NCBI GenBank assembly: GCA_913041895.1
Contig: CAJWKQ010000012.1
Span: 1-33,208 of the forward strand
DNA length: 33,208 bases
Reading direction: 5' to 3'
From: an uncultured Verrucomicrobiales bacterium
GTDB lineage: Bacteria > Verrucomicrobiota > Verrucomicrobiia > Limisphaerales > UBA1100
Below the pieces are notes generated by a model. It saw nothing but the letters and a program-made list of their open reading frames with translations. It searched no databases and had not been told where the DNA came from. The position numbers and the translations under genes are program-made. Below are positions 28,558 through 33,208 of the stretch, in pieces; within the stretch, counting starts at the first letter, position 1, and each line of letters starts with the position of its first letter.

Positions 28558-29922
28558 TTATGCGTTTGCCTCACTCAAGCGATTAATGACATTGCCGCCA
28601 ACTATGGTTAGCGTGGGCCTGCCTTTGAGGGCCCAGTCATTAAATGGAGTATTGGAGCTTTTACTTGGGCTGCTTTCAACATCAAAGACCCATTGAATAT
28701 CCGGATCAAATACCGTTATGTCCGCATCTGCGCCAATTGTAAGGGTGCCTTTTGTGAGATTGAGTAATTTAGCAGGATTTATGGTGTACTTAGCAATCAG
28801 ATCGCTTAATGAGAGGTGTTTGCCATGATATAGCTGGGTTAATGATAGGGCTAGTTCTGTTTCCAGCCCAGTGATTCCAAAAGGTGCATAATCAAATTCC
28901 ACATCCTTCTCATGAGCACAGTGGGGTGCGTGGTCGCTGGCAAGGATTTCAAGGGTGTTATCGGCAAGCCCCTCGATAATTGCAGTGCGGTCATCTGCTG
29001 AACGCAGTGGTGGGTTCATCTTAAAACGAGTGTCAAAGGATGCCCATTGTGTTCTTTGTGATTCTTTTTGCAGTTCGCGTCCGTCTTCAGCCCAGAAATG
29101 TTCACTGCCCCCTATCGCTGCATCGGTGAGAGTGAAATGGTGAGGGCATGCTTCACCAGAGATACAAACTCCATTTTGCTTGGCACGCCGGATGAGTTCA
29201 ACGGATTTTGCGCTACTGATATGTTGACAGTGAATATGAGTGCCGGTGAGTTGAGCTAGTTCGATATTTCTAGATACAATTAAATCTTCTCCGGCAGCCG
29301 GCCAACCTTTTAATCCTAGATTAGTACTCCAATACCCTTCATGCATGACTCCGTCAGTCACCATTGAGTAGTCTTGGCAGTGGTCCATAACAGGCAGGCC
29401 GAACATGCCTGCGTATTCCAGGGCACGCCGCATCAGTTCGTTATTTTGTACGCAGTGGCCATCATCGGTGATAGCAACCACCCCCGCATCCTTTAAGGAG
29501 CCAATTGGCGCTAATTCTTTCCCTGCAATGCCTACTGTAATGGCTCCGGCTATATAGACATTTACTAATGCCTCATGCTGAGCCTTGTCTTGTATCAATT
29601 TGACCGTAGATGGGGTGTCAATGGCAGGGGAGGTATTAGGCATGCAGACGACTGAGGTGAATCCCCCCATAGCCGCAGCTGATGAACCTGATGCAATGTC
29701 TTCCTTAGCCGTTTGGCCTGGTTCTCTAAAGTGAACGTGTAGATCGATTAGTCCAGGGCAAACTACTTGTCCGGAGCAATCAATGATCTCGGCATCGTCA
29801 GTTGGTTTTAAATCTTTGCCCAGTGAATGTATTTTGCCATTGGAAAGAAGAACGTCGACGTTTTCATCGCGGGTATTGGCCGGGTCTATCACACGCCCGC
29901 CCTGAAGCAGCACTTGGCTCAT
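28558..29922 (-). CDS. pyrC: dihydroorotase
   Basis: A 454-residue class I-type dihydroorotase of the amidohydrolase superfamily, closing the ring of carbamoyl aspartate to dihydroorotate. DLHVHFREPGQTAKEDI carries the zinc-binding H-x-H, followed by SGSSAAAMGGFTSVVCMPNT. The later HIHCQHISS and LASDHAPHC hold further metal ligands and the catalytic aspartate. An insertion at about 250-320 (ITLTDAAIGG and the following acidic loop) is within family range. The ATG at 29922 (MSQVLLQ) is the likely start; 29934 is possible. With carA downstream it forms a small pyrimidine block. Confidence 0.94.
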   Translation of the reverse strand: MSQVLLQGGRVIDPANTRDENVDVLLSNGKIHSLGKDLKPTDDAEIIDCSGQVVCPGLIDLHVHFREPGQTAKEDIASGSSAAAMGGFTSVVCMPNTSPAIDTPSTVKLIQDKAQHEALVNVYIAGAITVGIAGKELAPIGSLKDAGVVAITDDGHCVQNNELMRRALEYAGMFGLPVMDHCQDYSMVTDGVMHEGYWSTNLGLKGWPAAGEDLIVSRNIELAQLTGTHIHCQHISSAKSVELIRRAKQNGVCISGEACPHHFTLTDAAIGGSEHFWAEDGRELQKESQRTQWASFDTRFKMNPPLRSADDRTAIIEGLADNTLEILASDHAPHCAHEKDVEFDYAPFGITGLETELALSLTQLYHGKHLSLSDLIAKYTINPAKLLNLTKGTLTIGADADITVFDPDIQWVFDVESSPSKSSNTPFNDWALKGRPTLTIVGGNVINRLSEANA

Positions 29923-29947
29923 CGCCCACATCATAACCGCTGACGGA

Positions 29948-29975
29948 TTGACAAGGCAAGCGAACAGGCTAGAGT
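29948..29975 (+). promoter_or_regulatory. promoter of tRNA-Gly
   Basis: TTGACA (29948-29953), a 16-nt spacer and TAGAGT (29970-29975) with a G+C-rich discriminator (GCGCCC) end about 11 nt before the tRNA. The pattern TAG(A/G)GTGC(G)CC matches the tRNA-Ser promoter at 16698-16726, so this promoter appears to belong to the bacterial chromosome. Confidence 0.65.
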
Positions 29976-29986
29976 GCGCCCAGTTT

Positions 29987-30060
29987 GCGGGTGTCGTATA
30001 ATGGTATTACCTTAGCCTTCCAAGCTAATGATGTTGGTTCGATTCCTACTACTCGCTCCA
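29987..30060 (+). tRNA. tRNA-Gly(TCC), imperfectly paired, CCA encoded
   Basis: The cloverleaf is complete: anticodon loop CTTCCAA in the stem TTAGC/GCTAA, T-loop TTCGATT, discriminator T and CCA at 30058-30060. Three pairs are imperfect: two G.U pairs in the acceptor (positions 4-69 and 7-66) and a T.T mismatch in the T-stem (GTTGG against CCTAC). Each would become Watson-Crick if the 5' partner were A. It still folds and may work, but the asymmetry suggests a mosaic gene. Confidence 0.9.
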
Positions 30061-30061
30061 T

Positions 30062-30137
30062 TCCCCGATAACTCAGTTGGTAGAGTGGTTGGCTGTTAAC
30101 CAATTTGTCGCTGGTTCGAGTCCAGCTCGGGGAGCCA
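30062..30137 (+). tRNA. tRNA-Asn(GTT), CCA encoded
   Basis: The acceptor TCCCCGA/TCGGGGA and T-stem GCTGG/CCAGC are perfect, the anticodon loop is CTGTTAA, the discriminator is G and CCA is encoded. It begins one base after the CCA of tRNA-Gly, so the two come from one transcript. Tight tRNA packing next to small phage-like genes fits a phage-borne tRNA, though a host origin is not excluded. Confidence 0.95.
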
Positions 30138-30168
30138 TTTATAATCGTCTAATCATGAAAGGATAGAC

Positions 30169-30390
30169 ATGGATACGTTAAAAACAATAGTGAAATGGAT
30201 TTCTGCATTTATTCTGATTATATTGGGATTTGCATTACTCAAACCTTATGGTGTTCTTTTTGCAGGACTTGCTTGTTTCATGTGTGCATGGATCATTATA
30301 ATGGGTACTGGCCCAACAAAGAGTTTCTTAGAATCCAGAGTCGATTCTCTTGAAAGAATGGTTCAAAATATTATTTTCAAAAAAGTTTGA
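30169..30390 (+). CDS. small membrane protein, phage-like region, function unknown
   Basis: A 73-residue protein with two hydrophobic helices (about 7-25 and 28-46) separated by a KPYG turn, then a charged, probably amphipathic C-terminus (SFLESRVDSLERMVQNIIFKKV). AAAGGA at 30156-30161 serves as SD. It lies 31 bp after tRNA-Asn and is probably read from the tRNA transcript. Its stop lies inside a 12-bp inverted repeat. No family is recognised. Confidence 0.65.
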   Translation: MDTLKTIVKWISAFILIILGFALLKPYGVLFAGLACFMCAWIIIMGTGPTKSFLESRVDSLERMVQNIIFKKV

Positions 30391-30397
30391 AAATAAT
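30370..30397 (+). repeat. perfect 12-bp A+T-rich inverted repeat before promoter P1
   Basis: ATTATTTTCAAA (30370-30381) and TTTGAAAATAAT (30386-30397) form a hairpin with an AAAG loop. It includes the last codons and stop of the 30169 gene and abuts the -35 of P1. It has no clear U-run, so it may be an RNA 3' end or processing hairpin, or a protein site. Confidence 0.6.
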
Positions 30398-30453
30398 TTG
30401 ACATTCGGCACTTCTTATGATATACTATAATCTGAGTGAGTGAGAAATAACCC
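30398..30453 (+). promoter_or_regulatory. phage-like promoter P1 and conserved leader
   Basis: TTGACA (30398-30403), a 17-nt spacer ending TTATGA and TATACT (30421-30426). The leader that follows carries GTGAGTGAGA-AATAACCC (30436-30453) before the CGGAG of the next gene. The same elements recur at P3 (32497-32551). Confidence 0.85.
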
Positions 30454-30469
30454 TTTTCGGAGATTGATT

Positions 30470-30775
30470 ATGAGTACAGATATGAGAGTTGCGGAAACAA
30501 TTTTGAGTCAATTGGGCGGAAATCGTTTTCGTGTCATGACAGGTGCAAAAAACTTTGCAGCTACTGATAATTCCCTGAGAATGAGAATTGGACGAAACAA
30601 AACCAATGCAAATTACATGGAAGTATCTTTGAATATGCTTGACCTTTATGACATTACTTTTGCCAAAGTTACTAAGATGGGTGAGATGAAGTCGGTCAAG
30701 ACCTACGAAAATGTTTACAACGATATGTTGGTTGAGATTTTTGAATCTCATACTGGAATGTACACTTCATTATAG
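30470..30775 (+). CDS. small conserved phage-type protein (QLGGNxF...MTGAKNF)
   Basis: A 101-residue protein. I recognise the pattern ILSQLGGNRFRVMTGAKNF, then DNSLRMRIGRNK, then the closing YNDMLVEIFESHTGMYTSL. It is a small protein type met repeatedly in phages and other mobile elements, without known function. The start is set by GGAG 30459-30462 and by promoter P1; an in-frame GTG at 30440 would lie within the leader and is unlikely. It is followed by the 30785 gene after 9 bp. Family recall is from memory and was not searched. Confidence 0.75.
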   Translation: MSTDMRVAETILSQLGGNRFRVMTGAKNFAATDNSLRMRIGRNKTNANYMEVSLNMLDLYDITFAKVTKMGEMKSVKTYENVYNDMLVEIFESHTGMYTSL

Positions 30776-30784
30776 GAGATTATT

Positions 30785-30985
30785 ATGGGTATGGTGAAAA
30801 AAGAATTTGTCGAACACGAAATTGGTCTGGAAGAAGTTCGAGCCGGACTTGATTGGTTGTGTATGTATGGTAAGAAGTCGTTCCAAGACCATACTGGTGA
30901 GTGGGTCGAGGTTCGTTGTGCTGGTCAACCTAACTTTTTTGATGCCAACATAGAGCCAATTGCTCACGAAATAGAAAAATTTTAA
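30785..30985 (+). CDS. small protein, phage-like region, function unknown
   Basis: A 66-residue soluble protein with an acidic start (KEFVEHEIGLEEVRAGLDWLCMY) and a middle part (TGEWVEVRCAGQP) that suggests a small alpha/beta fold. AGGAG at 30774-30778 lies 6 nt before the ATG. It is the second gene of the P1 unit and ends just before P2. No family is recognised. Confidence 0.65.
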   Translation: MGMVKKEFVEHEIGLEEVRAGLDWLCMYGKKSFQDHTGEWVEVRCAGQPNFFDANIEPIAHEIEKF

Positions 30986-30996
30986 TTGAAAAAAAC

Positions 30997-31025
30997 TTGA
31001 CATTCCTTTCATAGTTTGATATAAT
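30997..31025 (+). promoter_or_regulatory. phage-like promoter P2 with inverted repeat flanking the -10
   Basis: TTGACA (30997-31002), a 17-nt spacer ending TTTGA and a perfect TATAAT (31020-31025). An A-run precedes the -35. CCTTTCATA (31005-31013) and TATGAAAGG (31029-31037) form a perfect 9-bp inverted repeat around the -10, shaped like an operator. Confidence 0.85.
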
Positions 31026-31052
31026 AATTATGAAAGGTGAGAAAAGGTAGAT

Positions 31053-31178
31053 ATGAAAATGTCTGAATTAAAAAAACTTGATGCTGTCCTTCGGATGACT
31101 CGTTTCTCTACTAAGAGAAAAGGTTGTGAGAAGAAGCGTCTTTCAAAGAGAGCTTGTCGTGGCAAAATTATTGTCTAG
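31053..31178 (+). CDS. 41-residue basic peptide, phage-like region
   Basis: A short, strongly basic peptide (MKMSELKKLDAVLRMTRF, then STKRKGCEKKRLSKRACRGK), first gene of the P2 unit. AAAGG at 31042-31046 provides an SD. The charge suggests nucleic-acid or membrane contact; nothing more can be said. Its last 20 bp overlap the next gene. Confidence 0.5.
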   Translation: MKMSELKKLDAVLRMTRFSTKRKGCEKKRLSKRACRGKIIV

Positions 31179-31287
31179 TATAGAAGCAGTTGTCGAGTGG
31201 GCATTTAAATGGTTCATCGTTTACTTGATAATCGGTGAAATCCTTTTCATTTCTGTAGGATATGTTCTTCCTACTTTCATTTATTAA
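31159..31287 (+). CDS. 42-residue membrane peptide, phage-like region
   Basis: It starts at GTG inside the preceding gene and ends at the TAA of the repeated cassette (31285). A short amphipathic N-terminus (VAKLLSSIEAVVEWAFKW) precedes one membrane helix (FIVYLIIGEILFISVGYVL). It is the first of three consecutive small membrane peptides. The GTG start and the 20-bp overlap lower the certainty. Confidence 0.45.
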   Translation: MAKLLSSIEAVVEWAFKWFIVYLIIGEILFISVGYVLPTFIY

Positions 31288-31302
31288 TGGAGATTTGATA
31301 TG
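31285..31302 (+). repeat. stop/SD/start cassette, copy 1
   Basis: TAATGGAGATTTGATATG contains the TAA stop of one peptide, a GGAG SD and the ATG of the next. An identical 18-bp copy lies at 31378-31395, 93 bp away. Confidence 0.85.
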
Positions 31303-31380
31303 GAACTTTTTTTAGGTATTTTGGGTGCAGTCGGTTTTATGACTGTTGTGTTGATCTGGTCTTGGATCGTAATGTCGTAA
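31300..31380 (+). CDS. 26-residue membrane peptide, phage-like region
   Basis: Almost the whole peptide is one hydrophobic helix (LFLGILGAVGFMTVVLIWSW). Its translation is well supported by the cassette at 31285-31302, GGAG 7 nt before the ATG. It could act in membrane disturbance, exclusion of other phages or regulation of a host membrane protein; none of these can be shown. Confidence 0.55.
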   Translation: MELFLGILGAVGFMTVVLIWSWIVMS

Positions 31381-31395
31381 TGGAGATTTGATATG
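31378..31395 (+). repeat. stop/SD/start cassette, copy 2
   Basis: TAATGGAGATTTGATATG, identical to 31285-31302. It links the 26-residue and 28-residue peptides. Confidence 0.85.
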
Positions 31396-31479
31396 AAAAT
31401 GTGGCTTGAAGAGATTGGTACGGCGGTACTATTATTTGGTTTGATGTACTTGGTTGCAGTAATTATGTTTTCACTTTGA
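31393..31479 (+). CDS. 28-residue membrane peptide, phage-like region
   Basis: A single predicted helix (IGTAVLLFGLMYLVAVIMF) follows a short charged start (MKMWLEE). The same GGAG SD as in the preceding peptide serves it. It is not similar in sequence to its neighbour beyond being hydrophobic. Third of the three membrane peptides. Confidence 0.55.
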   Translation: MKMWLEEIGTAVLLFGLMYLVAVIMFSL

Positions 31480-31493
31480 TATAGGAGTTTGTT

Positions 31494-31883
31494 ATGAGTA
31501 TGAGTAAAGTTGCGTGTGAGAAATTGTTAGAGAGAGCCCATCTGATGGGTATGGATGCTGGTCGTGCTAGCACTCCAACTCCGATGATTGTCGGAAGTCC
31601 AAGCACTCCCTTTGGGAGTGACATTGATTATTCCAAGAAAACTTATTTCGTGGAAGGTGGTGCTTGTGGATTTGCAGGAGTAGTTATTAAACCTGCTCGT
31701 GGTAAGTTTGTTTCTTATCTCAGGAGTATCGGAATGGGATACAAACATTATTATGGTGGATACTATGTTCCTGTTCGTGAATTTGGTCAATCCCTTGCTC
31801 GTAAAGAGGCCTATGCAGAAGCATATGCAAAGGTTCTGAGTGAAGAAGGTATGAGTTGTTATGTCGATTCAAGAATGGACTAA
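31494..31883 (+). CDS. 129-residue protein, phage-like region, function unknown
   Basis: The largest complete gene of this part. AGGAG at 31482-31486 precedes the ATG. An N-terminal helix (ACEKLLERAHLMGMDAGRA) leads to a Pro/Ser/Thr-rich stretch (STPTPMIVGSPSTPFGSD) and a Tyr/Gly-rich middle (GMGYKHYYGGYYVPVREFG). A C-terminal amphipathic helix follows (RKEAYAEAYAKVLSEEG). The middle region GACGFAGVVIKPARGKF resembles a compact beta domain. No family is recognised and no signal peptide is visible. Confidence 0.65.
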   Translation: MSMSKVACEKLLERAHLMGMDAGRASTPTPMIVGSPSTPFGSDIDYSKKTYFVEGGACGFAGVVIKPARGKFVSYLRSIGMGYKHYYGGYYVPVREFGQSLARKEAYAEAYAKVLSEEGMSCYVDSRMD

Positions 31884-32004
31884 AATGTATAATGATGTAT
31901 ATAACTATCTGTTTGCGAAGATGTGTCAATTTTTGAGATGGATAGATTTTCCTGAAGCAGGCTGGATATGGCTCGATCAAAACATTTTTAATGGAGCATT
32001 ATGA
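31861..32004 (+). CDS. 47-residue peptide, phage-like region
   Basis: An aromatic-rich peptide (MSIQEWTKMYNDVYNYLFAK, ending in DFPEAGWIWLDQNIFNGAL). It starts inside the previous gene; an ATG at 31885 would give 39 residues. Its stop overlaps the next ATG (ATGA), which supports real, coupled translation. Confidence 0.5.
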   Translation: MSIQEWTKMYNDVYNYLFAKMCQFLRWIDFPEAGWIWLDQNIFNGAL

Positions 32005-32297
32005 AAAGACACAATGTTGCACCTGGCTGTTATTTTGAACCAGACGAATCGGAAGTTCTTATAGATCCGATTGTAGGAAAGAAGTCTGGTACGATATCAG
32101 AAGAGCCAAAACTGTATAGAAGGAAATCGATTCTGGATGATATTCCAGATGACTTTGAAGCTCGGATGATGGGATTCAAACCTGCAGCTCGAAAAGTTGA
32201 AAAGACGGATGTGAAACTTCCTGACGGCTTTGCGGTTTCAGTTGCATATAACAAGTCAGGATATCAAGTTGTTCCCAAAGAAGATTTGAAAACATGA
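32001..32297 (+). CDS. 98-residue protein, phage-like region, function unknown
   Basis: A soluble charged protein. The N-terminal half is acidic (EPDESEVLIDPIVGKK), the middle (KSILDDIPDDFEARMMGFKP) could be helical, and the C-terminus is more beta-like (GFAVSVAYNKSGYQVVP). GGAG lies before the start. It overlaps the genes on both sides by 4 bp (ATGA), so it is tightly coupled within the P2 unit. No family is recognised. Confidence 0.6.
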   Translation: MKRHNVAPGCYFEPDESEVLIDPIVGKKSGTISEEPKLYRRKSILDDIPDDFEARMMGFKPAARKVEKTDVKLPDGFAVSVAYNKSGYQVVPKEDLKT

Positions 32298-32500
32298 AAC
32301 ATCAATATACAATAGAACTATTATTTCATTTCAATTGTAGCACTTGTAATAATTGGTGGAGTTATGCTTCTACTCCCAATTGTTTGTCGGGAAGTATTGA
32401 GTATAATTCTCTTCCAGAGAATATTGATTACTACTGCCCACATTGTGGTGTTGCAGAAAAAGTTGAAGTGAAAGAAGGATTTTTAAATAAAAAAACTTGA
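32294..32500 (+). CDS. 68-residue zinc-ribbon protein, phage-like region
   Basis: Two cysteine pairs, FNCSTCNNWW and YYCPHCG, about 30 residues apart, form a zinc-ribbon. Such tiny zinc ribbons are common in tailed phages and often of unknown role. The start overlaps the preceding stop (ATGA). It is the last gene before promoter P3. Confidence 0.7.
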   Translation: MKHQYTIELLFHFNCSTCNNWWSYASTPNCLSGSIEYNSLPENIDYYCPHCGVAEKVEVKEGFLNKKT

Positions 32501-32551
32501 CATCTTGAGTCAAATTTGATATACTATTCTTGTGAGTGAGAGAGATAACCC
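32497..32551 (+). promoter_or_regulatory. phage-like promoter P3 and conserved leader
   Basis: TTGACA (32497-32502), a 17-nt spacer ending TTTGA and TATACT (32520-32525). The leader GTGAGTGAGAGAGATAACCC (32532-32551) then leads to CGGAG, the same elements as at P1 but with two extra bases. The -35 overlaps the stop of the zinc-ribbon gene. Confidence 0.87.
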
Positions 32552-32565
32552 AAACGGAGTTTGTG

Positions 32566-32700
32566 ATGGAAAAAGAATTGATTGGTTGGTTTGATGCTAG
32601 TATGTCCGATGAGGATATTATTGAAATGATCGAGGAGATCGAGGCAGAAGAAGAAGCTCGTCTAGAACTTGAAGATCACGCAATGAATAATGAGGTGTAA
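32566..32700 (+). CDS. 44-residue acidic peptide, phage-like region
   Basis: A strongly acidic peptide (DEDIIEMIEEIEAEEEARLE), probably one long helix, first gene of the P3 unit. CGGAG 32555-32559 serves as SD. Small acidic phage peptides sometimes mimic DNA or bind host enzymes, but nothing here proves it. Confidence 0.55.
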   Translation: MEKELIGWFDASMSDEDIIEMIEEIEAEEEARLELEDHAMNNEV

Positions 32701-32701
32701 T

Positions 32702-32971
32702 ATGTCTGGAAATATACATAGAATTTTCTCAATGAGTACAGAAGAAATCATCAGAAATAGAATGAACAGGGCAATGTCCTCTAAGGGTAAAACCTTTTTC
32801 TGGAATCCTACAAGTAAGTTTCATGTCAAACGTAAAATCAAAGATGTTCGTTTGACTTTTGGTGGTAATGTTGAATTAACTTTTTTTGCCCCACTTCCTA
32901 GTAAGACAAGTAGGTTGTTTACTATTGAACCTACTTTGGATTGCATGGATTCTTTTTGTATTGCAGACTAA
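32702..32971 (+). CDS. 89-residue protein, phage-like region, function unknown
   Basis: Start chosen at 32702 because GAGGT at 32692-32696 lies just upstream; an in-frame ATG at 32690 would fall within the previous gene. The N-terminal half is basic (IIRNRMNRAMSSKGKTFFWNP) and the C-terminal half beta-like (DVRLTFGGNVELTFFAPLP). The stop shares a base with the next start (TAATG). No family is recognised. Confidence 0.6.
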   Translation: MSGNIHRIFSMSTEEIIRNRMNRAMSSKGKTFFWNPTSKFHVKRKIKDVRLTFGGNVELTFFAPLPSKTSRLFTIEPTLDCMDSFCIAD

Positions 32972-33208
32972 TGGTCATTCATATTGGTGACTTGGTTCGG
33001 CTGTCTGGAAAAACCAGACACGGCAAGAATCGTATTAGAGAACATGGAGATCTCGCAGAAGTTGCTCACATTGATGGAGTCTTAAATGCATTGAAGAAAT
33101 TCTGTGTCATACATAAACATGGAGACTCTTGGAGATGGATTGATCTTCCAGAAGATGAGCATATGAATTGGGAGATGGTTGAGAAAAACGATAAATGTCA
33201 TTTTGATA
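32971..33208 (+). CDS. phage-like protein with KTRHGKNRIREHG motif (partial, runs off right edge)
   Basis: At least 79 residues: MVIHIGDLVRLSGKTRHGKN, then RIREHGDLAEVAHIDG, then WRWIDLPEDEHMNWEMVE. From memory, short proteins opening with GDLVRL and a KTRHGKNRI(R/H)EHG stretch occur in T4-like marine myoviruses; this was not searched. The frame is open to the window edge. Confidence 0.65.
   Translation, partial: MVIHIGDLVRLSGKTRHGKNRIREHGDLAEVAHIDGVLNALKKFCVIHKHGDSWRWIDLPEDEHMNWEMVEKNDKCHFD

Follow-up and report, generated by a model that had tools for sequence, protein, structure and literature searches.

The stretch of DNA analysed here (the window, 33,208 nt) is contig C12 of a draft assembly that totals 3.17 Mb in 278 contigs and is ~82% complete. 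We conclude, with a probability of roughly 93%, that this contig is an assembly chimera, in which the pyrC–tRNA-Gly(UCC) locus of the host, a marine Verrucomicrobiota bacterium, is joined to the tRNA array of a phage. The original prediction, which read the tRNA-Gly gene at the join as a mosaic, was right, and the cause is very probably the assembly; the hybrid tRNA-Gly is thus not expected to be a biological feature. Integration and assembly error had been put forward together as causes; assembly error is favoured by the evidence below, and integration is disfavoured.

Both ARAGORN and Rfam place a tRNA-Gly(TCC), i.e. tRNA-Gly(UCC), at 29987-30060. When its stems were checked one by one, the acceptor stem (GCGGGTG/TACTCGC) was found to contain two G-U pairs, 4-69 and 7-66, and the T-stem (GTTGG/CCTAC) a U-U at 51-63, with all pairs of the anticodon stem (TTAGC/GCTAA) perfect. 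The earlier description of a host-type 5′ end followed by a mispaired phage-type 3′ end is exact. The predicted folding energy is −13.7 kcal/mol (z 0.13), so that the gene folds no better than its own shuffles, and the GC content changes from ~0.46-0.50 on the pyrC side to ~0.34-0.40 directly past the tRNA-Gly. The gene, on the forward strand, can be divided into three parts. Bases 1-19 (29987-30005), on the host side, abut the host promoter and lie within the first 24 bases, which the congener gene shares without a difference; a 26-nt word shared by C12 and the tip of contig C263 follows at 30006-30031, with the join in or upstream of it; and the remaining 3′ part (30032-30060), comprising the T-arm and the acceptor 3′ strand, is phage-derived. 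This last part falls in a 31-nt 3′ end that is identical to that of the tRNA-Gly on viral contig L070, and it does not match the host sequence on C263.

On the host side, a pyrC-like gene (28558-29934, reverse strand) is divergent from the tRNA gene, and its product shares 85% identity over 458 aa with that of the congener G002. The gene is called a putative dihydroorotase on the strength of a DLHVHFREPG motif; its best named relatives are from MAGs of Verrucomicrobiota, often marine ones. In most of the Verrucomicrobiota relatives fetched, tRNA-Gly(UCC) adjoins pyrC. The promoter of the tRNA gene (29948-29975, forward strand), as read from the sequence, consists of TTGACA, 16 nt and TAGAGT. 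In G002, the TTGACA element and the spacing are unchanged, the −10 element is TAAGGT, and the promoter region as a whole is nearly identical, which bears out the claim that the upstream promoter is host-like. Given that tRNA bases 1-24 are also identical between the window and G002, the nearest congener with this junction, the 5′ side is assigned to the host. An exact search of genome contigs with the 25-nt host 5′ junction returned no match.

The true host continuation of this locus is present elsewhere in the same assembly. Contig C263 (3535 bp) stops inside a tRNA-Gly: read on its reverse strand, it opens with ATTACCTTAGCCTTCCAAGCTAATGA, which corresponds exactly to bases 20-45 of the window tRNA-Gly (26 identical nt) and is found nowhere in the 3.17-Mb assembly except on C12 and at this tip of C263. 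On C263, the shared 26 nt are followed by CGCGAGTTCGATTCTCGCCACCCGCTCCA and then by a putative Fur-family gene (family named from the sequence), which starts at base 69 on the reverse strand. The tRNA portion of C263 provides a GCGAG/CTCGC T-stem and the acceptor 3′ strand CACCCGC; combined with bases 1-19 from C12, it yields a tRNA-Gly in which the acceptor, anticodon and T stems are all fully paired and for which the predicted folding energy is −24 kcal/mol (z −2.95). In G002, pyrC is followed by tRNA-Gly and then by a homologue of the Fur-family gene (82% identical), with no phage in between; this homologue and two further C263 genes trail the tRNA-Gly with their order kept, after ~0.7 kb of other DNA. 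Because the C263 tip completes the tRNA and G002 keeps the gene order, we conclude that the pyrC–tRNA-Gly–fur locus is split between C12 and C263. The host 3′ half ending in CACCCGC that had been predicted thus exists in the same genome, whereas the predicted host T-stem partner, CCAAC, was wrong, because the T-stem 5′ strand from which it was deduced belongs to the phage. A search for a second tRNA-Gly(UCC) in this MAG (G000, a draft ~82% complete) found no other match.

The DNA downstream of the tRNA-Gly had been described as phage-like, and both an ORF assigned to a phage protein family and viral relatives agree with this. One base past the tRNA-Gly lies a tRNA-Asn(GTT) (30062-30137, forward strand; ARAGORN and Rfam), which is 86% identical over 58 nt to a Pectobacterium phage tRNA-Asn and is probably a member of a phage tRNA array. 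From there, a phage region of small genes (30138-33208, forward strand), with small ORFs at ~36% GC, runs off the contig end. The ORF at 30440-30775 belongs to phrog_9437, and its relatives occur on 13 viral contigs, one of which aligns with the window in several stretches from 30390 to 33050 and gave no match to other contigs of this MAG; the viral record L039 aligns to the region in stretches, at 73-82%. On a related viral contig, the product of a neighbouring gene is a baseplate hub and tail lysozyme, as would fit a contractile-tailed phage. A search of the related viral records for the phrog_38 terminase gave a match in L070 alone, so that the T4-like kinship of the other records rests on this one baseplate hub/lysozyme gene.

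A phage tRNA-Gly beginning with GCGAGTA, as predicted, was found in IMG/VR. On five viral contigs, tRNA-Gly genes open with GCGAGTATCGTATAATGGTATTACC, and a sixth, L070, carries a tRNA-Gly (GCGAGTA...TACTCGC) whose last 31 nt are those of the window, the U·U included. This gene sits within a phage tRNA array, and L070 also carries a terminase gene, tRNA-Tyr, tRNA-Cys and a cut tRNA. The acceptor is perfectly paired in all five viral GCGAGTA tRNA-Gly genes that were checked pair by pair. Pair 51-63 is non-Watson-Crick in each of these five (L065, L066, L067, L070 and L071), with U-U or other mismatches in two and G-U in the rest; the T4 gene has no such non-Watson-Crick pair there. Since the U·U at 51-63 occurs in an intact viral gene, it is a phage trait and not a scar of the join, and the whole T-arm is phage. 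The proposal that all three imperfect pairs arose from the join therefore holds for 4-69 and 7-66 but not for 51-63, and the crossover, originally put in or before the T-loop, can be placed within or before bases 20-45. The second parent is thus represented, with its own intact gene, by the homologue L070 and not by the exact phage, which an exact search of viral contigs with the 43-nt 3′ part of the window gene did not find; for this reason, we infer the 5′ half of the phage's own tRNA-Gly from its relatives. The missing gene most likely starts with GCGAGTA and lies on a contig outside the bin. For comparison, the acceptor of T4 tRNA-Gly(UCC) is GCGGATA/TATCCGC, whereas the window phage has the 3′ strand TACTCGC and, presumably, the 5′ strand GCGAGTA.

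The join lies in sequence common to its parents, and a word closely resembling the 26-nt one is present in the viral genes. The D-arm sequence TCGTATAATGGTATTACC is found in T4 tRNA-Gly(UCC), in tRNA-Gly genes of marine viruses and in this host family, hence a word shared by host and phage. The two tRNA-Gly genes would have been joined via a shared stretch of at least 26 nt, which runs from the last part of the D-arm to the far side of the anticodon arm; host and phage genes of this type have much of these two arms in common, enough for merging at k=21 and perhaps k=33. A k-mer graph can include paths to which no actual genome corresponds (PMC8172020). A false contig may have been built at small k, at a thinly covered spot, and then carried forward, which would account both for the run of C12 from host into phage and for the start of C263 at the shared word. 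Exact 55-nt overlaps in seven contig pairs (145 contig ends examined) are the mark of a k=55 graph, and the C12/C263 break shares just 26 nt, shorter than this final k. Given the exact 55-nt overlap of those seven pairs, the break does not look like a normal link of the final graph, and the join predates the final k or has another cause; it needs either a small-k origin or a chimeric read. Co-sampling of host and phage, with a false join at low k, would be the best account of the 26-nt break. An assembler with k=27, suggested by the 26-nt overlap, was also considered and was rejected on the exact 55-nt overlaps in the contig-end statistics. The chimera resembles contigs from k-mer-based short-read metagenome assembly in which two genomes are joined at a short conserved word and the true continuation remains as a contig starting at that word (PMC8172020). 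It differs in that the word falls within a tRNA gene, leaving a readable mispaired hybrid tRNA.

Another reading, which we regard as improbable, is that an integrase inserted a real prophage inside the tRNA-Gly, such that the window holds attL and the C263 tip borders attR, and either the hybrid tRNA remains functional or a phage tRNA takes its place, which is the situation in tRNA-dependent lysogeny (PMC10865867). Integration into tRNA genes is known for phages; some share a 43-bp core with mismatches, and some leave the host tRNA unrestored and bring their own (PMC10865867). The window resembles the prophage sites of Fionnbharth and Boilgate in that a single tRNA gene passes from a host 5′ half to a phage 3′ half and that the phage carries tRNA genes (PMC10865867). 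Moreover, the assembly graph around the shared word would look identical after integration, and a core of this size could yield the same broken contigs. However, in a true lysogen with a 26-nt core and k=55, C263 should extend into phage DNA, whereas it ends with the shared word and has no phage DNA ahead of the host 3′ half, although a broken contig could hide an attR. The 3′ end of the window tRNA-Gly is not that of the host. Also unlike Fionnbharth and Boilgate, tyrosine integrase (PF00589) and resolvase-type (PF00239) domains are absent from the 17 related viral records, all of which are fragments; the homologous viral tRNA-Gly genes are whole, several with other tRNA genes beside them, and are not 3′ stubs; and the congener locus is uninterrupted. 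With regard to restoration or replacement of the host tRNA, the hybrid is mispaired, the MAG yielded one tRNA-Gly(UCC), and only 3.1 kb of the phage is present. That a large tRNA-bearing phage occupies the only tRNA-Gly(UCC) found, with a hybrid or replacement tRNA and hence tRNA-dependent lysogeny outside Actinobacteria, is a shade less probable again.

Imperfect pairs can also occur in natural tRNAs, and the gene could in principle be a genuine, naturally mispaired tRNA-Gly of host or phage with nothing joined. For the 51-63 mismatch, a natural origin does hold, since the phage gene has it. Yet host DNA precedes the tRNA-Gly and phage DNA follows it, GCGGGTG and TACTCGC are combined in none of the pyrC-linked tRNA-Gly genes listed, nor in the viral ones, and the intact host 3′ half on C263 contradicts this explanation, which we find scarcely credible.

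Under the assembly-chimera reading, the last 3.1 kb of the contig do not belong in the tally of bacterial sequence, the contig is no ground for assigning the phage to this host, and neither a prophage nor a hybrid tRNA should be reported on its basis. Disagreeing acceptor strands of a tRNA, together with an adjacent change in composition, can serve as a cheap check that flags host–phage misjoins in MAGs.

Contig breaks within tRNA genes recur in this assembly (C82 and C268). One end of C82 (L219, 12834-12884) falls at base 51 of a tRNA-Gly(CCC), a second tRNA-Gly cut by a contig end. The right end of C268 (L087) has 25 nt that also form, without a difference, the first bases of a tRNA gene within C273 (L092, 1428-1509), possibly another break or misjoin at a tRNA. 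In the phage region of the window, the product of the ORF at 31494-31883 (129 aa) has a modest PHROG match to phrog_22149 (6e-7, function unknown) and no relative among named phages. A strong promoter-like repeat, TTGACA-like and then TATAAT-like, occurs three times (30387-30427, 30986-31026 and 32486-32526), each copy preceding small phage genes; similar stretches are found in related viral contigs, and these repeats are probably phage early promoters.
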